Assembly (NCBI GenBank): GCA_021155145.1
Contig: JAJNPX010000404.1
Coordinates: 1-13,368 of the forward strand
From: Acidisarcina sp.
GTDB taxonomy: Bacteria > Acidobacteriota > Blastocatellia > Pyrinomonadales > Pyrinomonadaceae
Direction: 5' to 3'
DNA length: 13,368 nt
Positions 1,278 to 8,772 of this stretch are shown here, in pieces. The notes below the pieces were generated by a model that saw nothing but the letters and a program-made list of their open reading frames with translations, was not told where the DNA came from and did no database searches. Both the position numbers and the translations under genes were made by a program. The first letter of the stretch is position 1. Each line of letters starts with the position of its first letter.

Positions 1278-1301
1278 AATTCGGTCATTTCCAAAATTTA
1301 C

Positions 1302-1329
1302 TTGTGAGACTGTGGAAATTTGCTATAAT
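1302..1329 (+). promoter_or_regulatory. Sigma-70-type extended -10 promoter for hfq-tmk-holB
   Basis: TTGTGA (1302-1307) and a perfect TATAAT (1324-1329) are separated by 16 bp, and TG at 1321-1322 with one intervening base makes an extended -10. It lies in the 95 nt gap between miaA and hfq. A start about 7 nt downstream would leave a leader of roughly 37 nt before the hfq ATG. This is the clearest promoter in the window. Confidence 0.8.
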
Positions 1330-1372
1330 CGTCGAGTAATTGTAAATTCAACAAAATAAACGAGAAAATGTT

Positions 1373-1591
1373 ATGGAAAAACCGGCGGCCCAGAACATTC
1401 AGGATGCATTTTTAAATTCTGCAAGGCGGGAAAAGATCACGGTGGTAATTCACTTGCTGCAGGGGTCAACCCTATCGGGGCGTATAAAGAGTTTTGACAA
1501 ATTCTCGGTCCTGCTCGATGTCGGTGGGCAGGACGTCCTTATCTTCAAGCACTCCATCTCTACCATTTCTCAAGAGAGAAAGACTGACTAG
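1373..1591 (+). CDS. hfq: RNA chaperone Hfq
   Basis: This 72-residue protein is a complete Sm-fold Hfq with almost no C-terminal tail. The N-terminal NIQDAFLNSARREK (8-21) aligns with the proteobacterial SLQDPFLNALRRER and keeps the proximal-site Gln (Gln10) and basic rim residues (Arg18, Arg19, Lys21). The Sm1 motif is LLQGSTLSGRIKSFDKFSVLLD (28-49), including Phe44 as the stacking aromatic. The Sm2 motif is FKHSIS (58-63), with Phe58 replacing the usual Tyr and Lys59/His60 retained for uridine binding. Hfq hexamers bind sRNAs and A- or U-rich mRNA segments and promote pairing. A weak GAG at 1362-1364 may serve as ribosome binding site. It heads a run with tmk and holB, and its TAG stop lies in the same frame as tmk. 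Hfq identity is very secure. Confidence 0.96.
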   Translation: MEKPAAQNIQDAFLNSARREKITVVIHLLQGSTLSGRIKSFDKFSVLLDVGGQDVLIFKHSISTISQERKTD

Positions 1592-1597
1592 ACCAGA

Positions 1598-2230
1598 TTG
1601 ACCGGGAAATTCATTACCTTCGAAGGGATCGACGGCAGCGGTAAATCAACTCAACTACGAATGCTGGCAGGGGACCTGCGCGCCCGCGGGATCGATATCC
1701 TCTCGACGCAGGAGCCTGGCGGGACACCGCTCGGACGCCGGCTTCGCGAGGCATTTCTCGAAACTGAGGAGACGGTCGCACCGCTTGCCGAGTTGCTTTT
1801 GTTTGCGGCCGACCGGGCCCAGCATGTAGAACTGCTCATCAAGCCCGCCCTCGGCGAAGGCCGCGTCGTGATCTCCGACCGCTACGCCGACGCCACGTTC
1901 GCATATCAGGGAGCGGGGCGCGGCTTTGACGAAGAGACGGTCAACGCCGTGATCGGCCTCGCGACGGGAGGGCTGAAACCCGATCTCACGCTTTTTTTTG
2001 ACATCACCGTCGAGATGGCATTGACGCGGATGCGTTCCTCGCGGGGCGACGAACGGGTGCAGAACCGCATGGACCTCGAGGCCGCCGAGTTCTACCATCG
2101 CGTTCGCAGTGCGTATCTGGGTATCGCCGAACGCGAGGCCGATCGATTCCGGGTGATCGACGGCACGGGGCCGATCGATGAGATCCATAAGACGGTCGTA
2201 GAGATGGTCGCTGGCTATATCGGAACATGA
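1598..2230 (+). CDS. tmk: Thymidylate kinase (dTMP kinase), TTG start
   Basis: Tmk phosphorylates dTMP to dTDP using ATP. The 210-residue protein carries the P-loop EGIDGSGKST (9-18), the EPGGT dTMP-site loop (39-43, preceded by Gln38 where Arg is common), SDRYADATFAYQGAGRG (93-109) corresponding to the DR(Y/H) signature, and an Arg-rich LID segment near 145-158. The start must be TTG at 1598: the preceding in-frame codons are AGA, ACC and then TAG, which is the hfq stop at 1589-1591, and the next in-frame ATG would remove the P-loop. The gene therefore begins 6 nt after hfq in the same frame and without a good Shine-Dalgarno sequence, so translation is probably coupled to hfq. The 3' end overlaps holB by 4 nt. 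Confidence 0.96.
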   Translation: MTGKFITFEGIDGSGKSTQLRMLAGDLRARGIDILSTQEPGGTPLGRRLREAFLETEETVAPLAELLLFAADRAQHVELLIKPALGEGRVVISDRYADATFAYQGAGRGFDEETVNAVIGLATGGLKPDLTLFFDITVEMALTRMRSSRGDERVQNRMDLEAAEFYHRVRSAYLGIAEREADRFRVIDGTGPIDEIHKTVVEMVAGYIGT

Positions 2231-3246
2231 TGTTCGACAAACTTATCGGAAACGAAGAAGCAAAGGCCCGCCTCGGCCGCATGGCAGCGAGCGGGCGGAT
2301 ACCAAATGCTCTTCTTTTTGCCGGCCCCGAGGGCGTCGGGAAAAAGGAGTTCGCGTTCGAGTTCGCAAGGCTTTTGATGTGCCGTGCGGGCGGCTGCGGG
2401 ACCTGCAGCATCTGTTCCAGGATCGGGAAGGTCGAGATCCCGAAGCCCGAAAAGGGTGAAGATTTCGACAGGGTTTTCTTGAGCGATCATCCGGATGTCG
2501 GGCTGGTCGTGCCCTACAAGCGGAACCTCCGGGTGGGTTCGATCCGTGCGCTCGAGCGCGAGGCCAATTTCCGTCCGTTCGAATCCGAGAGGCGTCTTTT
2601 TGTCATCGACGATGCCGAGAAGATGAACGATTCGGCCTCTAATGCTCTTCTAAAGACGCTCGAGGAGCCGCCGGCTACGACCGATATCATAGTGATAAGC
2701 GCGCGGCCGGATTCGCTTCTTCAAACCATAAGGTCGCGGTGCCAGATGATCCGTTTTGTTCCGGTCGAGGCCCGCTCCATCGAGACGTTCCTGAGATCGT
2801 CCGGCACATATTCAGCCGAAGACGCTGCATTGGCGTCCCGTGCGGCCAGGGGAAGCGTAGCGAAGGCTCTGTCCCTGGACCTTGAATGGTTTCGGCAGAT
2901 GCGCGGGCTCCTGATCGACGTAATTCGCTCCGCCATTCTCACCGGCAATATAGCGACGATGCTCCAGATCAGCGAGCAAGTGAACGACCCACGGAACAAG
3001 GATCTGTTCGAAGAGTCTGTCGATATTCTCCAATCTCTGATACGGGACACGCTCGCATTTCAAAAGGGTTCGAGCGATCTCGCGAACCCCGACCTTGCGG
3101 ACCATTTCCGGGAATTCGCCGACGCCGTTGAGACCTCAACGATCGAACGATGGAATAACGAGATCGAAGATATGAGGCTGAACCTGTTCGTCAACATAAA
3201 CCGAAAGGTTGCGATCGACGGCCTCTTCGCCCGGATGGCGGCCTGA
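2227..3246 (+). CDS. holB: DNA polymerase III clamp-loader delta' subunit (HolB-like)
   Basis: This AAA+ clamp-loader ATPase-family protein has 339 residues. Visible features are the N-terminal FDKLIGNEEAKARL region, a Walker-A-like GPEGVGKK (33-40) in which Lys39 is followed by Lys rather than Ser/Thr, a zinc-type cysteine cluster (Cys52, Cys57, Cys60, Cys63), the segment FVIDDAEKMNDSASNALLKTLEEPP (Walker B and sensor helix region), and TIRSRCQMIRF with the SRC arginine-finger motif. A degenerate P-loop with an intact SRC motif fits delta', the non-hydrolysing stator subunit, rather than gamma/tau, and no tau-like extension is present. The ATG overlaps the tmk TGA (ATGA) and is followed at once by a second in-frame ATG. 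The tmk-holB pairing is common in bacteria. The C-terminal collar domain (about 200-339) is poorly conserved, as is usual. Confidence 0.92.
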   Translation: MMFDKLIGNEEAKARLGRMAASGRIPNALLFAGPEGVGKKEFAFEFARLLMCRAGGCGTCSICSRIGKVEIPKPEKGEDFDRVFLSDHPDVGLVVPYKRNLRVGSIRALEREANFRPFESERRLFVIDDAEKMNDSASNALLKTLEEPPATTDIIVISARPDSLLQTIRSRCQMIRFVPVEARSIETFLRSSGTYSAEDAALASRAARGSVAKALSLDLEWFRQMRGLLIDVIRSAILTGNIATMLQISEQVNDPRNKDLFEESVDILQSLIRDTLAFQKGSSDLANPDLADHFREFADAVETSTIERWNNEIEDMRLNLFVNINRKVAIDGLFARMAA

Positions 3247-3360
3247 TAATCGGTGAATGAGGATCGAGAAAGTGAGGTTTGCTGGAACCTTTTCGTCTTT
3301 TCTGGTGTCTAAGCTAGAGGCGGAGGAGTCGCCAATATTCCATCCAAAGAGGAGAGTATT

Positions 3361-4074
3361 ATGATCAGGTTGCTAATCGCAGCGGCTTTACTTTCGGTAT
3401 TATCTGCAGCGTCTCTTGCCCAGGAAACCACGAAAGCAATAAACGGCGGAGTGTTGAACGGAAAAGCAAAGAGCATTCCCAAGCCGGAATATCCCGAGGA
3501 TCTAATGGCGAGCGGCATCCAAGGTGTAGTACGGGTGGAGGTGATCGTCGATGAGGGAGGAACGGTAATTTCCGCCGAACCCATCGCGGAGGCCACGCCT
3601 CGCAGCACCGAGGCGGAGACTGCCTTTCAGCTTTTATTTCCGTATGCCCGCAGTGCGGCATTAGAGGCAAGATTTTCGCCCACGTTTCTGAATGACTCGC
3701 CCGTCAGGGTCAGGGGAGTTCTCGTCTATAATTTTCTGAAGGAGGATAGCGTCAAGTCGGCGGGTCCCGTGCCGGGCGGCGGCGTGCTGAACGGAAAGGC
3801 CATTGCGCTACCAAAACCGGCGTATCCCGCTGTCGCCCGTGCCGTTCGGGCCGGTGGGACGGTCGCCGAGCAGGTCTTGCTAGATGAAGAGGGAAGGGTC
3901 ATTTCGGCGGTGGCGGTCTCCGGTCATCCGCTCCTGCGGGCCGCATCGGTCGAGGCCGCACGCACGGCGGTATTTTCACCGACCACACTTGCCGGAATAC
4001 CGGTCAAGGTTTCGGGAGTTCTGGTTTATAATTTTATTCCGCCCGATAGTAAGGGCGAGCATCTGAATAACTGA
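3361..4074 (+). CDS. Secreted protein with two tandem TonB-C-type domains
   Basis: A strong AGGAG (3350-3354) sits 6 nt before the ATG. Residues 1-20 are a signal peptide (MIRLLIAAAL..., cleavage expected after SLA before QETT). The 217-residue remainder is two homologous repeats, about 29-125 and 139-225. Each opens GGVLNGKA, continues (P)KPxYP, a VDExGxVISA strand-turn segment, an FSPT motif, and closes with GVLVYNF. The KPxYP entry and VDExGxV segment are typical of TonB C-terminal (TonB_C) modules. Repeat 1 carries about 10 extra residues near 84-97. There is no N-terminal membrane anchor and no Pro-rich spacer, so this is not a classical energy-transducing TonB; the domain appears used as a soluble periplasmic or exported binding module. 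The repeats are also recognisable at DNA level. It overlaps the next gene by 1 nt. The exact role is unknown. Confidence 0.85.
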   Translation: MIRLLIAAALLSVLSAASLAQETTKAINGGVLNGKAKSIPKPEYPEDLMASGIQGVVRVEVIVDEGGTVISAEPIAEATPRSTEAETAFQLLFPYARSAALEARFSPTFLNDSPVRVRGVLVYNFLKEDSVKSAGPVPGGGVLNGKAIALPKPAYPAVARAVRAGGTVAEQVLLDEEGRVISAVAVSGHPLLRAASVEAARTAVFSPTTLAGIPVKVSGVLVYNFIPPDSKGEHLNN

Positions 4075-4508
4075 TGGAAGAGGCAGTCGCCGGTATTACT
4101 GATCCAAACTCGCAGGAGAGGCTTTTCGCCGCTGTCGGCGTCGTGGCCGTCGTGACCGGGGCGGCGGCGACCTGGTATTTCGACCCGACCACATCCGGGT
4201 TCTTTCCCGCCTGCCCTTTATATTCGACCACAGGATTTGCGTGTCCGGGCTGCGGCCTGACGCGTGGGTTTCATGCCCTCTTTCACGGTGACATTATTAC
4301 CGCCCTTGATCACAACGCTTTGATCCCGGTGGTGATGATCTTCTTCGGTTATTGGTTCGTGTCGATGTTTCTGGTCGCGGTCCGCGGCCGCGGGCTGGGT
4401 TTTGGAAAGCTGAGCCTGACGATGGTGATGTCCACGCTCTTTTTGCTGCTCGTATTCGGCGTTCTCCGCAATCTGCCGTTCTATCCGTTCACGATCCTCT
4501 TCCCGTAG
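4074..4508 (+). CDS. DUF2752 family membrane protein
   Basis: This 144-residue integral membrane protein has three predicted membrane segments, about 17-35, 83-105 and 115-137. The diagnostic DUF2752 block follows the first helix: FPACPLYSTTG, then FACPGCGLTRGFHALFHGD, with a CPxCG pair and the downstream Asn of the ALDHNALIP segment. The function of the family is not established; the conserved cysteines could bind metal or form a disulfide. The start codon ATG overlaps the TGA of the preceding secreted double TonB-C protein (TGATG), so the two are translationally coupled and probably work together at the envelope. The gene converges on ispG across 46 nt. The family call is confident; no function can be assigned. 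Confidence 0.88.
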   Translation: MEEAVAGITDPNSQERLFAAVGVVAVVTGAAATWYFDPTTSGFFPACPLYSTTGFACPGCGLTRGFHALFHGDIITALDHNALIPVVMIFFGYWFVSMFLVAVRGRGLGFGKLSLTMVMSTLFLLLVFGVLRNLPFYPFTILFP

Positions 4509-4554: not shown

Positions 4555-5661
4555 TTATGTGATCTGAACGAGGTTTTTGTTATCGAGAAGCGATCTGGCG
4601 GCCGAACCTTCCTTTCGCAGGATCTCGACTTCCTTCACAAATTCCTCGACGATATCCTCGCCGGAGACGCGACGCATCGGCACGCCGTCCTTGAATATCA
4701 TGCCCACATTTCGTCCGAAGGTGATGCCGAGCTGCGAATCATGTGCTTCGCCCGGGCCGTTGACCGCGCAGCCCATTATAGAAAGGTGCAGCGGTTCTTC
4801 GACGTGAGCGAGGCGGCGTTCGACCTCGGTCACGATCTCGACGAAATTATCTATATCGAGCCGCCCGCAGGTCGGGCATGCCACGACCGTGACGCCGCGC
4901 TTGCGAAGTTCGAGAGATTTTAGGATCTCCCACCCGACGCGTACTTCCTCGTGCGGTTCGGCGGCCAGGGAAACGCGAATGGTATCTCCGATGCCTTCGT
5001 GAAGCAGAATGCCCAGGCCGATCGCCGATTTGATCGTGCCGCCAAACGGAGTTCCGGCTTCGGTAACGCCGAGATGAAGCGGGTAATCGACTTTTTCAGC
5101 CATCAGCCGATAGGCCGCAACCATGCGATTCACGTCCGAAGCTTTCAAAGAGATGATCGTATTTCCAAACCCGAGGTCTTCGAGTATCCTGATGTGCCGC
5201 ATACCCGATTCGACCATAGCTTCCGGAGTGGCCGAACCGTATTTCTTCAAAAGGTCTTTCTCGAGCGAACCGCCATTTACGCCGATGCGGATCGGTACTT
5301 TTTGTGCCTCGGCGGCGCGAACTACCTCGCGAACGCGGTCGATCGAGCCGATGTTGCCCGGGTTGATGCGCAGCTTGTCGATGCCTGCGTCGAGCGCTTT
5401 GAGTGCGAGCTTGTAATGAAAATGGATGTCGGCGACGATCGGCACATTTGTGCGTTTTCGGATCTCGTACATCGCGGCAGCGGCGTCGTCATCGGGAACG
5501 GCGATGCGGACGATCTCGCATCCGGCCTCGACCATCTCGTCGATCTGGCGGATCGTTGCGTCCACGTCGGTCGTATCCGTCTTGGTCATTGACTGAACGA
5601 CGACCGGTGCTCCGCCGCCGATCTGGATGTCGCGAACTTTAACTGCCCGTGTGTTACGCAT
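4555..5661 (-). CDS. ispG: 4-hydroxy-3-methylbut-2-enyl diphosphate synthase IspG (GcpE)
   Basis: IspG reduces the cyclic diphosphate MEcPP to HMBPP in the MEP isoprenoid pathway using a [4Fe-4S] cluster. The 368-residue protein has the N-terminal TIM barrel (VVQSMTKTDTTD at 21-32, VADIHFHYKLAL at 76-87, LRINPGNIG at 97-105) and the C-terminal cluster domain. Cluster ligands are visible: Cys262 and Cys265 in ACPTCGR, Cys298 in IMGCAVNGPGEA, and the fourth ligand Glu305. It is the short bacterial form without the inserted domain of plant and Chlamydia enzymes. The ATG lies only 8 nt from the left repeat of the four-helix-bundle unit, so the leader of ispG consists almost wholly of that unit, with no Shine-Dalgarno sequence. 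It is the last gene of dxr-rseP-(inserted gene)-ispG. Confidence 0.97.
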   Translation of the reverse strand: MRNTRAVKVRDIQIGGGAPVVVQSMTKTDTTDVDATIRQIDEMVEAGCEIVRIAVPDDDAAAAMYEIRKRTNVPIVADIHFHYKLALKALDAGIDKLRINPGNIGSIDRVREVVRAAEAQKVPIRIGVNGGSLEKDLLKKYGSATPEAMVESGMRHIRILEDLGFGNTIISLKASDVNRMVAAYRLMAEKVDYPLHLGVTEAGTPFGGTIKSAIGLGILLHEGIGDTIRVSLAAEPHEEVRVGWEILKSLELRKRGVTVVACPTCGRLDIDNFVEIVTEVERRLAHVEEPLHLSIMGCAVNGPGEAHDSQLGITFGRNVGMIFKDGVPMRRVSGEDIVEEFVKEVEILRKEGSAARSLLDNKNLVQIT

Positions 5662-5669
5662 AAAATGCT

Positions 5670-5698
5670 AGTTGCGGAAGTTGCAGAAGTTACGAAAG
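5670..5698 (+). repeat. Left inverted-repeat end of four-helix-bundle unit (9-bp units)
   Basis: Reading inward on the plus strand: AGTTGCGGA, AGTTGCAGA, AGTTACGAA, then AG, ending immediately before the stop codon of the four-helix-bundle gene at 5699. Units 1 and 3 joined reproduce exactly the outer 20 bases of the right end read inward on the minus strand. The outer edge lies 8 nt upstream of the ispG ATG. Confidence 0.85.
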
Positions 5699-6073
5699 CT
5701 ATTTTTTCTGATGACCTCTTAGATATTTAGCCAGACCAAGCGTAAGGCGAGATATCTCCGCAAGCGAATTATATAGTTCATCAAAGTCTTCCCTTTTTAA
5801 ATATCCAAGCCCCAACGCTATGTGAAGATGGCTCTGAGCCTCGTGCGAAGAACCCCTCGCAATATTTAAGAAGTTTGCAAATTCGGTATTGCTCTTACGG
5901 CCGTATCCCTCCGCAATATTCGCCATGATCGAGACTGATGCCCGACGAATCTGATCACGAAGCCCAAAATCCCTTGAAAACTCTCCCGCTTCGGTCAGTT
6001 TATAAATTTGAACAGTAACTGCGTAAGCCTTCTTCCAGCTTTCGATATCCTCAAATCCCTCGAATCGCGCCAT
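5699..6073 (-). CDS. Four-helix-bundle protein of the 23S rRNA intervening-sequence (IVP) family
   Basis: From the ATG at 6073 the protein is 124 residues, the normal size for this family. It has the typical order: FEDIESWKKAYAVTVQIY helix 1, FGLRDQIRRASVSIMANIAEGYGR across helices 1-2, EFANFLNIARGSSHEAQSHL helix 3, LGYL turn, and a last helix ending GLAKYLRG. An AAGG 8 nt before this ATG supports the start. An upstream ATG at 6178 would add 35 residues, but these come from rseP and the 9-bp repeat array (they read as VAEVTKVTGVT) and are not part of the family. Members were first found in rRNA intervening sequences of Leptospira and Coxiella; related Avd proteins assist diversity-generating retroelements. 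The biochemical role is unclear. Here no rRNA or reverse transcriptase is nearby; the gene sits inside the rseP-ispG junction. Confidence 0.92.
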   Translation of the reverse strand: MARFEGFEDIESWKKAYAVTVQIYKLTEAGEFSRDFGLRDQIRRASVSIMANIAEGYGRKSNTEFANFLNIARGSSHEAQSHLHIALGLGYLKREDFDELYNSLAEISRLTLGLAKYLRGHQKK

Positions 6074-6091
6074 TTCAATCGCCTTTGCGAC

Positions 6092-6155
6092 GTCGCAACT
6101 ACAGAAACTACCGCGACTGTTCGTAACTCCTGTAACTTTCGTAACTTCCGCAACT
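6092..6155 (-). repeat. Right inverted-repeat end: seven degenerate 9-bp units
   Basis: On the minus strand from 6155 inward the units read AGTTGCGGA, AGTTACGAA, AGTTACAGG, AGTTACGAA, one extra C, then AGTCGCGGT, AGTTTCTGT and AGTTGCGAC. The period is nine with one extra base. Outer units are near identical to the left end; inner ones decay. The array starts at the base next to the rseP stop codon and ends 18 nt before the four-helix-bundle ATG. Confidence 0.85.
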
Positions 6156-7520
6156 CTAAAAGAACCTAGACACGTCAAGGAACAACGTGAAGACCATCAG
6201 CAGCAGAATGATCCCAAGCCCTGCGAGCTGTATCTTTTCCTTGATCGCCAGCGAAAGCGTCGCGCCGAACCACGACATCACCTTCTCGATCCCGAGCACC
6301 ATGATCTGGCCGCCGTCGAGCAGCGGGATCGGAAGCAGGTTGAACACACCCAGGTTGAGGCTGATCACCGCCAGGATCGAGAACAGTCCGACGAACCCAT
6401 CCTCGCGCACCACATTTGAGATGATGCCGACGATACCGACCGGCCCGGCCAAACCCGCATCCTTGACCGCCCGCTGGCCGCTGAATAGCTGCCCGAATAC
6501 GCGGCCGGTGAGGGCGATGATCTCGTAATTCGAGTTGACCGCAAATGCCGCGGCGTCTGTAATGCCGGCAGGTTCGCGTACCGAGCTGCCCTTGCCCTGC
6601 AGTTCGATCCCGATCCGTGCCTGTCCCGTCTCGGTCATCGCTGCCGTCGCCACTAGCTGTTGGCGAACGCCGCCGCGCTCGACCACGATGTTCAGCGGCG
6701 ATTCCTTATTCTCCTGCACGAGCGACATGAAGTTCGTCACGTTCCTTACGTTCGAACCGTTGACCGCCACGATCTTGTCGCCGCTCTGCATGCCTGCGAG
6801 GGCCGCCGCGGAACCTTCCTCTACCTTGCGAACATATACGTCCTGCACGCCCGCATCGGGGCGCATATCCGTCTCTCCAAAGGCCTGCCCTTTTCGGTCG
6901 GCCTTGGTCGGCGTGATCGTCAGCGCGATCCGCTCTCCGCTGCGTTCTACCACGACCGGAACAGGCACATCGGGCGATATCGCCGCGCCCGTCTCGATCT
7001 TTCTCCAGGTCGGATTGTCTTCGCCGTCAAAGGCAACTATCCGGTCGCCCGCCTTGATACCTGCCTTTTCGGCCGCGCCATTCGGCACGACGTACGAGAT
7101 CATCGGGTCGGGGATGGCCGGTGTTCCGTACATCAGCGCGCCGAAGAACGGGATCGACAGGGCCAGAACGATATTCATGAACGGCCCGCCGAGCATCACG
7201 AGGAATTTCTGCCATCGCGGCCGAAGCTCGTAGAGTTCCTCCGCCGGCACCGACTCGTTTGCCGAATCGCCGCCCTCGAGCGGCGCCGTTGCCTCGTCAC
7301 CGTAGAGCTTTACATAGGCACCGAGCGGTATGGCAGAGATTCGGTAATCGGTATGCCCGACCTTGAACCCCCAGATCCGCGGCCCCAGACCGAAGAACGA
7401 ATACGCTTCGACCCGCATCCCGAACAGCTTGGCCACAATAAAATGGCCGAATTCGTGGATGTTGATCGCGATGCCGAGAACGAATATGACGGCTAAAATT
7501 ACTAATAAAATATCGGGCAT
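6156..7520 (-). CDS. rseP: RseP-type site-2 intramembrane zinc metalloprotease with two PDZ domains
   Basis: This 454-residue protein is of full family length. The zinc site HEFGH (22-26, ligands His22 and His26, catalytic Glu23) lies in the first membrane segment, and the third ligand is expected in NLLPIPLLDGG (Asp402). Two PDZ domains occupy the periplasmic loop, about 141-203 (VVPNGAAEKAGIKAGDRIVAFDG) and 227-291 (KVEEGSAAALAGMQSGDKIVAVNG). A GGP segment (111-113) marks the second hydrophobic region and a final membrane helix spans about 437-452. RseP cleaves anti-sigma factors and remnant signal peptides within the membrane. It follows dxr, as in many bacteria, after a 70 nt gap containing a 22-bp palindrome. 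No Shine-Dalgarno sequence precedes its ATG. The stop codon directly touches the right repeat of the four-helix-bundle unit. Confidence 0.96.
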   Translation of the reverse strand: MPDILLVILAVIFVLGIAINIHEFGHFIVAKLFGMRVEAYSFFGLGPRIWGFKVGHTDYRISAIPLGAYVKLYGDEATAPLEGGDSANESVPAEELYELRPRWQKFLVMLGGPFMNIVLALSIPFFGALMYGTPAIPDPMISYVVPNGAAEKAGIKAGDRIVAFDGEDNPTWRKIETGAAISPDVPVPVVVERSGERIALTITPTKADRKGQAFGETDMRPDAGVQDVYVRKVEEGSAAALAGMQSGDKIVAVNGSNVRNVTNFMSLVQENKESPLNIVVERGGVRQQLVATAAMTETGQARIGIELQGKGSSVREPAGITDAAAFAVNSNYEIIALTGRVFGQLFSGQRAVKDAGLAGPVGIVGIISNVVREDGFVGLFSILAVISLNLGVFNLLPIPLLDGGQIMVLGIEKVMSWFGATLSLAIKEKIQLAGLGIILLLMVFTLFLDVSRFF

Positions 7521-7590: not shown

Positions 7591-8772
7591 TCAATTAGCG
7601 GCTGCGGAACCTTCGATCGTTATTATAGCGCGTGAACGCGCCCATTCGTCGGCGCTGAGAACGGCATCCAGCGTATCGGCCGGAGCCGTTCCGTGCGCTT
7701 TCATCACAGTTTCATTCACCGCGGCGATCTCGCTGATCCGGATCTTTCCGTCCAGAAAGGCCTTCACCGCGATCTCGTTCGCAGCATTCAATACGGCGGG
7801 CATAGTGCCGCCCGCTCTGAGGGCTTCGAAAGCGAGCCTCAGGCACGGAAATCGTTCCAGGTCCGGTTCTTCGAACGTCAGGCTTCCGATCTTTGCCAGG
7901 TCGAGCGGCTCTAAACAGCCGGACGCGCGTTCCGGATATGTGAGCGCATACTGTATCGGGTGCTTCATATCCGTCACGCCAAGCTGTGCGATCACCGAGC
8001 CGTCGATCATCTCGACCATCGAATGGACGACCGATTGCGGATGTACGATGACCGAGATCTGGTCCGCATCGAAACCGAACAGCCAATGCGCCTCGATCAC
8101 CTCAAGCCCTTTGTTCATAAGGGTTGCGGAATCGATGGTGATCTTTTCACCCATGTTCCAATTCGGATGTGCCAGGGCTTCTTCGCGGGTCGCGGAGGCG
8201 ATCTGGTCTTTTGTCTTCTGGCGAAACGGGCCGCCCGATGCGGTCAGCACGAGCCGTTTTACCTCGCCGAGCTTTTCACCCCTGAGGCACTGGTGGATGG
8301 CGTTATGCTCGCTATCGACCGGCAGGATCTCCGCTCCGGACCGCGCCGCCGCTGCCGTCATCAGTTCGCCCGCCATTACGAGGGTTTCCTTGTTGGCCAG
8401 AGCGATCCGCTTGCCGGCCTCGATCGCGCGAAGCGTTGGCATAAAGCCAACCGCACCAACAGTTGCAGAAACAACAGTGTCGGCTTCGGCGTGGGTCGCG
8501 ACGGCGACCAACCCATTTTCGCCAAACTCGATCTTTGGTGCACCATCCGGGCCGCGGCCGTTCACGCGGAGCAGACGCGCGAGTTCCCCGGCGTGATCCT
8601 CTGTATCGACGGAGACCAATTCCGGCCCAAACTTTGCGACCTGCTCGGCAAACGTCTGCATATTTCGCCCCGCGGCCATCGCCACAACGCGAAAACCGCC
8701 CAGATGCTCAATTACTTTCAGGGTGTTGCAGCCGATCGAGCCGGTAGAACCGAGGATGGAGATGCCCTTCAT
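7591..8772 (-). CDS. dxr: 1-deoxy-D-xylulose 5-phosphate reductoisomerase
   Basis: Dxr converts DXP to MEP with NADPH and a divalent metal, the first committed MEP-pathway step. At 393 residues it is the normal size. The NADPH-binding GSTGSIG lies at 8-14, followed by an AAGRN loop. The metal-binding residues are in LPVDSEHNAI (Asp153, Glu155) and at Glu224 of MNKGLEVIEAHW. The substrate and flap region includes SGGPFR and HPNWNMGEKITIDSATLMNKGLE (202-224). A C-terminal alpha-helical domain covers about 315-393. The gene starts the minus-strand operon dxr-rseP-ispG, giving two MEP enzymes in the same transcription unit as a site-2 protease. The start codon is preceded only by a distant AAGG and no clear promoter is recognisable in the 212 nt divergent region. 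Confidence 0.97.
   Translation of the reverse strand: MKGISILGSTGSIGCNTLKVIEHLGGFRVVAMAAGRNMQTFAEQVAKFGPELVSVDTEDHAGELARLLRVNGRGPDGAPKIEFGENGLVAVATHAEADTVVSATVGAVGFMPTLRAIEAGKRIALANKETLVMAGELMTAAAARSGAEILPVDSEHNAIHQCLRGEKLGEVKRLVLTASGGPFRQKTKDQIASATREEALAHPNWNMGEKITIDSATLMNKGLEVIEAHWLFGFDADQISVIVHPQSVVHSMVEMIDGSVIAQLGVTDMKHPIQYALTYPERASGCLEPLDLAKIGSLTFEEPDLERFPCLRLAFEALRAGGTMPAVLNAANEIAVKAFLDGKIRISEIAAVNETVMKAHGTAPADTLDAVLSADEWARSRAIITIEGSAAAN

Follow-up and report, generated by a model that had tools for sequence, protein, structure and literature searches.

What is the short gene that lies between rseP and ispG in this stretch of 13,368 nucleotides from Acidisarcina sp. (hereafter the window), and do the inverted repeats on either side of it make it an inserted unit? 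A preliminary description, made from the sequence letters, had proposed a four-helix-bundle gene of the IVP family, bounded by inverted repeats of 9-bp units and inserted without any transposase into an otherwise tight dxr-rseP-ispG order. The features on which the argument rests are as follows.

4555..5661, reverse strand: ispG, downstream neighbour (Pfam).
5662..5669: spacer of 8 nt between the element and the ispG start codon.
5670-6155: the complete element, inverted arrays of 9-nt units around the PF05635 gene, between rseP and ispG.
5670..5696, forward strand: 3' arm, downstream of the IVP gene and inverted, three 9-nt units AGTTGCGGA AGTTGCAGA AGTTACGAA.
6073..5699, reverse strand: IVP gene, 124 aa from ATG, PF05635 / TIGR02436, four-helix bundle with an Avd-like fold.
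6092..6155, reverse strand: 5' arm, upstream of the IVP gene, tandem 9-nt units.
6155-6120: the four good units of the 5' arm, AGTTGCGGA AGTTACGAA AGTTACAGG AGTTACGAA, with three degenerate units, seen by eye, reaching 6092.
6156..7520, reverse strand: rseP, upstream neighbour (Pfam).
7591..8772, reverse strand: dxr, next upstream of rseP (Pfam).

Alignment of the two arms (repeat search over positions 5500-6300 of the window) together with shuffling confirmed the inverted repeats of 9-bp units (consensus AGTTRCGRA) and the identity of their outer 13 bases (AGTTGCGGAAGTT). Positions 5670-5693 are complementary to 6132-6155 at 88% over 24 nt, and 5670-5696 to 6120-6146 at 85% over 27 nt. The arm-to-arm alignment scores 19.0, and none of 502 other window positions scores above 15.5. 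The consensus occurs five times in the window (0.35 expected), every time in one of the two arms, and none of 200 shuffles reached that count. The edges, too, are where they had been placed, as no gap separates the right arm from the rseP stop codon (6156-6158) and 8 nt lie between the left arm and the ispG ATG, giving the minus-strand order dxr, rseP, element, ispG by Pfam. In the RNA of the unit the arms are predicted to form a closing stem (z -2.99; none of 100 shuffles equally stable), so that the reading frame sits in the loop of stem-forming terminal inverted repeats, as described for intervening sequences (IVSs) of 23S rRNA.

The frame encodes 124 aa when counted from the ATG, or 159 aa from an upstream TTG, and its product matches PF05635 (E 2.3e-37, 127.9 bits, cut-off 33.8) and TIGR02436 (E 1.6e-35, 121.6 bits, cut-off 24). 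The structure model is a four-helix bundle (pLDDT 92), in agreement with the fold first proposed; its closest solved structures are 2gsc (TM 0.80-0.85) and 2rld (TM 0.75-0.79), both entries with five chains, and the next closest fold is that of the DGR protein Avd (4dwl, TM 0.74, E 0.027). Over the Avd structures 4dwl and 8ub7 the TM values were 0.67-0.74, with E of 0.03 or weaker and 11-12% identity; a resemblance of IVP to Avd has been noted before (PMC10053308). PF05635 is the only Pfam family matched by the element's gene, which bears out the absence of a transposase from the element and extends to HUH nucleases, and the six window proteins scanned with Pfam, other reading frames being taken from the listing, include no reverse transcriptase. 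With 6163 proteins in a single search the family is a large one, and it was described in 2024 as functionally uncharacterised (PMC11270868).

We then considered the rseP-ispG junction in relatives. Among the 13 loci from named relatives (L001-L013), rseP is missing at L012, and none of the other 12, all with an rseP-ispG junction, has the window-type IVP. In two of them the place is taken by another IVP of greater length, sharing about 35% (L001) and 33% (L007) identity with the window protein, and L006 holds a gene-less inverted array with similar units, as seen by eye. That the L006 array might be a deletion remnant retaining the last codons of an IVP was rejected, since 231 of 300 shuffles aligned equally well. 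Across the family the rseP-ispG region was matched in 116 of 119 genomes, and the best 30 of these 116 regions contain no window-type IVP: two (the L001 and L007 genomes) carry the long armless IVP and 28 have none by tblastn. The end pattern of the window element, AGTTNCGGAAGTTNC, was found at none of 80 ispG loci. As judged by eye, rseP and ispG are separated by only 3 nt in L194 (stop TAA, 3 nt, ATG) and overlap as ATGA in L217, consistent with the tight gene order that had been claimed. In the best-matching relative, L191 (first ~150 ispG residues 97% identical), the junction is occupied by a small palindrome of unrelated sequence and is not a clean empty site. The absence of the gene from the 30 best junctions, together with the small palindromes common there, marks the window gene as specific to its lineage and inserted at a palindrome-prone junction; movement of the window copy itself is what we infer from its absence there.

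Several other structures were observed at this junction. Across the family (L191-L219) many unrelated small palindromes are visible by eye, and in L201, more weakly in L197, an array of the AGTTACGA type lies inside the loop of another palindrome. L001 contains a 41-nt copy (39/41 identical; 4383-4423 versus 4993-5033) of the 5' end of ispG, start codon included, upstream of its armless long IVP, which is perhaps a trace of the origin of that insertion via duplication or recombination.

The anatomy seen in the window recurs far beyond this locus. PF05635 genes were present in 12 of 13 Acidobacteriota genomes (84 matched stretches, some of them fragments of one gene), and 70 loci were analysed, 69 with both flanks (L145 has no upstream flank; L188-L190 were left out). 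For each, the 200 nt before the gene were aligned to the 200 nt after it in reverse complement, the threshold being the maximum of 40 control ORFs; as this null (0 above threshold) is too lenient, rates at random positions are used for comparison. Matching inverted arms flank 56 of the 69 Acidobacteriota IVP genes, compared to 136 of 4000 random positions (3.4%) in one Acidobacteriota contig, and at a score of at least 18 the figures are 45/69 and 15/4000. Among the best matches listed for Pseudomonadota and Bacillota (60 loci), arms were detected at 25 of 30 Pseudomonadota loci versus 173 of 2000 positions (8.6%) in the same loci, and at 23 of 30 Bacillota loci versus 74 of 2000 (3.7%); with a score of at least 18 these become 18/30 versus 1.5% and 21/30 versus 1.25%, respectively. 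The family itself was present in 52 of 299 and 44 of 249 genomes searched in these two phyla. Sixteen plasmid loci (14 cyanobacterial, one Gemmatirosa and one Azospirillum, taken from 34 plasmid places) showed arms in 10 cases, against 173 of 2000 random positions (8.6%), while a set of 20 further genomes from other phyla, 17 of them without an IVP match, was not used.

Repeat units are mostly 7-9 nt long with some up to 11 (in Acidobacteriota mostly 7 nt, some 8-11), and they match within one element and differ between elements. What had been presented as a stand-alone unit is therefore better described as one member of a broad class, in which the unit sequence varies by element and to which insertions in 23S rRNA also belong (see below). 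Arms did not score at 13/69 Acidobacteriota, 5/30 Pseudomonadota, 7/30 Bacillota and 6/16 plasmid loci; at three of the plasmid misses (L229-L231) they are visible by eye, with the IVP gene's own stop lying in them. All four long IVPs of 166-176 aa (L102, L120, L124, L125) are without arms and are perhaps settled descendants with another role.

Filled and empty states of a single site could be compared in the genus of G210, for which 81 genomes were searched with a 1601-nt query spanning one element. The query matched through, denoting a filled site, in 19 of the 81, and as two halves in most others. Of the 62 non-filled regions 40 were read and their states assigned by eye, revealing 25 empty sites without an array, 4 internal deletions, 8 gene-less arrays and 3 cases of an unrelated palindrome. 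The empty site of L323 has about 19 nt extra between the genes, and the gene-less arrays have several different units, those of L360 and L361 being weak. In filled sites the stop codon of the upstream gene lies within the array or at its edge, and no target-site duplication was seen by eye between filled and empty sites. Eighteen of the 19 copies are full-length, and their median dN/dS of 0.072 (153 pairs) shows that the IVP is under strong purifying selection and the protein in use. The inserted-unit model holds, given the missing gene in the best 30 of 116 junctions, the recurrence of its anatomy at dozens of unrelated sites and true empty sites in a well-sampled genus, with the reservation that the L191 junction is not cleanly empty.

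The same genus site holds yet another type of insert, as L351, L352 and L353 bear an unrelated palindrome (ATGCATGTCGCCCAAAA...) where others bear the IVP element.

A tree built from the flanks requires the filled state to have changed 12 times, with 8 or more of these changes forced by well-supported branches, and L304 and L328 are filled and empty sisters; filled genomes are also clustered, as few changes being obtained in only 3 of 500 shuffles. Filled haplotypes share sequence past the arms up to the next ATG, and homologous recombination can therefore explain much of the filled/empty patchiness. This bears on an alternative in which the IVP gene is a non-mobile operon gene with regulatory hairpins that strains exchange solely through homologous recombination across the entire locus: the likeness of filled haplotypes beyond the arms to the next start codon speaks for it, and recombination can yield a patchy pattern on a tree. 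It does not account well for one site being occupied by different arrays.

Where else the elements reside is informative for this alternative as well. Rfam places five IVP genes with arms within 23S rRNA (L240, L285, L290, L294, L298): that of L240 (Azospirillum lipoferum 4B plasmid AZO_p2), with arms of 7-nt units, is within a full-length 23S match (1283-4481), and the four from Bacillota (L285, L290, L294, L298) are within 23S matches on the same strand, the L294 copy being interrupted by a stop. Such rRNA IVS insertions are thus one placement of the element, and the classical IVS, compared here through published descriptions, is best regarded as an instance of this element in a specific location. 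Placement in 23S accounts for 4 of the 60 Pseudomonadota and Bacillota loci (best matches listed), none of the 70 Acidobacteriota loci contains 23S-like DNA, and the window copy is at rseP-ispG, not in a 23S rRNA gene. On cyanobacterial plasmids IVP elements were also observed within cas operons (L236, L237, L238), at cas10-cmr3 and cas6-cas4, which may explain why the legend of a figure in a survey of CRISPR-linked genes names the 23S rRNA IVP (PMC10910872). One further element lies beside a conjugation gene. In three genomes (L249, L252, L254) the neighbours, named from flanking peptides, are presumably nuoC and nuoD. The occurrence of one anatomy in rRNA genes, in cas operons and next to a conjugation gene argues against a gene that stays in its operon.

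With one simple gene caller used throughout, armed elements are codirectional with both neighbours at 39/51 loci in Acidobacteriota, 18/25 in Pseudomonadota and 15/18 in Bacillota outside 23S, in total 72/94 versus 44% of 560 ordinary triples (one Acidobacteriota contig). Armless IVP genes are codirectional as often (9/12), and orientation is therefore independent of the arms. A strong codirectional bias that includes armless genes is again what a non-mobile operon gene would display. Since many loci have arms that start near the stop codon of an upstream ORF, one may also think of the IVP as a trans-acting regulator with the arrays as its binding sites on mRNA, forming a post-transcriptional network in which the framed gene regulates itself; MacGregor (PMC4679880) has considered that a protein binding the repeats might be the mobile element responsible for those of the TAACTGA type. 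We regard such a regulator as very unlikely, given that the arrays at one site vary between species of one genus and that rRNA genes, too, contain armed IVP genes.

To relate protein and repeat unit, 56 elements including that of the window were compared after removal of 23 pairs with similar flanks. Similarity of the proteins correlated with similarity of the units (rho 0.199; 0 of 1000 permutations as high), and no relation was left when one arm was flipped (rho -0.01). A unit was shared in 38% of 45 pairs with protein similarity of at least 0.6, versus 1% of 986 distant pairs, although some pairs counted as non-orthologous may be orthologs whose flanks have diverged. Units follow the IVP protein at unrelated sites, then, to a modest degree and in one orientation only. 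Related protein-plus-unit pairs even reside within one genome each (L122/L126, L105/L111, L098/L112), with no flank similarity detected. Such pairs are difficult to reconcile with spread by whole-locus recombination, and we judge the non-mobile operon gene to be an improbable account of the family.

A comparison of arms revealed concerted evolution of the two arms of one element. When related elements were compared, arms on the same side (15.4) matched no better than arms on opposite sides (15.2), whereas the arms within one element scored 23.4 and exceeded the between-element match in 40 of 45 pairs; because elements in this and the preceding test had been picked for arms that match, the value within elements is inflated, but the comparison of same-side with opposite-side arms is unaffected. 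For example, L343 (G699) has many copies of an 8-nt unit (GGGCAGTA) in both arms, and its sister L342 has the 7-nt GGCAGTA. L307 is a counter-example, with a shift in one arm and the other arm unshifted.

Arrays also occur without the gene. Contig G005:C6 (738,668 bp) contains 46 inverted repeats versus 7 in a shuffle, and 12 periodic ones versus 0; three of the 12 hold IVP genes and nine do not, and a fourth IVP on the contig is armless. A 21-mer of three GGCAGTA units is present in 60 of the 81 genomes of the G210 genus, its reversed control in 0. Among 20 hand-chosen dispersed GGCAGTA sites, 15 have both orientations close together and 5 a single orientation, and none of the 20 has an IVP gene. 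The preliminary description had reasoned that 9-bp repeats lying at random sites without IVP genes would speak against an inserted unit, and this is in part borne out, as gene-less arrays do exist (9/12 in G005:C6; 20/20 chosen sites). Of 14 genomes in which no IVP was detected, 9 contain arrays, and the number of arrays elsewhere in the genome is only slightly higher where the cognate IVP is present (median 9) than where it is not (median 4; p 0.034). Trans-mobilisation of gene-less arrays by a cognate IVP was entertained and set aside, as its p of 0.00014 included the main element's own arrays and became 0.034 on excluding them; dependence of dispersed arrays on the cognate IVP is weak.

The abundance of gene-less arrays, at 9 of the 12 G005:C6 repeats, all 20 chosen GGCAGTA sites and 8 of the 40 regions read at the genus site, together with their presence in genomes lacking a detected IVP, would be expected if the arms were the mobile or self-renewing part, akin to dispersed REP-like palindromes made of short tandem units that host replication moves or regrows, and the IVP gene a passenger or later recruit in their loop. 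A passenger would not readily be framed on both sides in 56 of 69 cases, co-inherited with its unit at unrelated sites in a fixed orientation and kept under strong purifying selection, and we consider this alternative to be unlikely.

We consider the following account, mechanism included, to be likely as a whole: positions 5670-6155 contain one complete copy of a compact and widespread type of insertion element. The element consists of an IVP gene framed by two inverted arrays of short tandem units, about 450-550 bp in all, and sits between cistrons, reading with the host genes and presumably depending on host transcription. In the transcript the arms are predicted to base-pair and enclose the gene in a loop closed by a long stem, which RNase III would cut by analogy with reports on rRNA IVSs; such cutting could make an insertion between cistrons or in an rRNA loop tolerable. 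Probably pentameric and with an Avd-like fold, the IVP would recognise its own repeat unit, as the co-inheritance of protein and unit suggests, and the arms may be kept alike by copying from one to the other, probably through template switching on the palindrome. No catalytic domain is known in the IVP, so host functions are probably recruited for movement, and gene-less derivatives would build up over time. More tentatively, and with rather less confidence than an even chance would warrant, IVP elements might constitute a separate class of selfish element without nuclease or polymerase, in which a pentameric Avd-like protein reads the unit of self-renewing arrays that host replication or reverse transcription copies, rRNA IVSs being one niche and the dispersed heptamer arrays described in several phyla the gene-less derivatives.

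Among known systems the nearest are the Coxiella-type 23S IVSs, which are 428-444 nt long with an S23/IVP reading frame inside terminal inverted repeats, are cut by RNase III and were suggested earlier to be mobile (PMC4990558). The window element resembles them in its S23/IVP frame, similar size and gene in an inverted-repeat loop, but it lies between protein genes whereas IVSs are described inside rRNA, and its arms are element-specific arrays of short tandem units where the IVS is described with a terminal stem (PMC4990558). With MITEs and insertion sequences it shares inverted ends, intergenic insertion and gene-less derivatives; unlike them it has no transposase and has ends that vary between copies, and a target duplication was not seen by eye. 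In RAYT-REPIN systems a gene encoding an HUH-type nuclease has cognate small palindromes, and gene-less palindromes are dispersed in the genome; dispersed gene-less arrays exist here also, weakly dependent on the cognate IVP, but the window IVP matches PF05635 alone in Pfam. The likeness to the Avd of DGRs is one of fold, the difference being that no reverse transcriptase is found among the six window proteins scanned.

Heptameric intergenic repeats are a further parallel, and the STRRs of cyanobacteria belong to this type. Such repeats have been described as GGGAATC in Xanthomonas and GGGGA(C/T)T in Nostoc, with 70 and 75 inverted heptamer pairs in two Xanthomonas genomes and few in Nostoc (PMC4692102), and as TAACTGA in Beggiatoaceae (PMC4679880). 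They resemble our arrays in being intergenic tandem 7-nt units, in Xanthomonas with inverted pairs (PMC4692102); in the main texts of PMC4692102 and PMC4679880 we found neither 23S rRNA, nor a helix bundle, nor intervening sequences mentioned. Searches of open-licence PMC papers brought up none that connects IVP genes with short tandem repeats in inverted arrangement. The IVP family, rRNA IVSs and the idea of their mobility were already known; for the general framed element we found no account in these searches.

PF05635 was named after ribosomal RNA, yet in these samples rRNA is the exception and the framed element the rule. IVP elements are a possible source of the unexplained heptamer repeats, and the nature of the IVS becomes a directly testable question, through binding of the unit, excision by RNase III and spread in culture.
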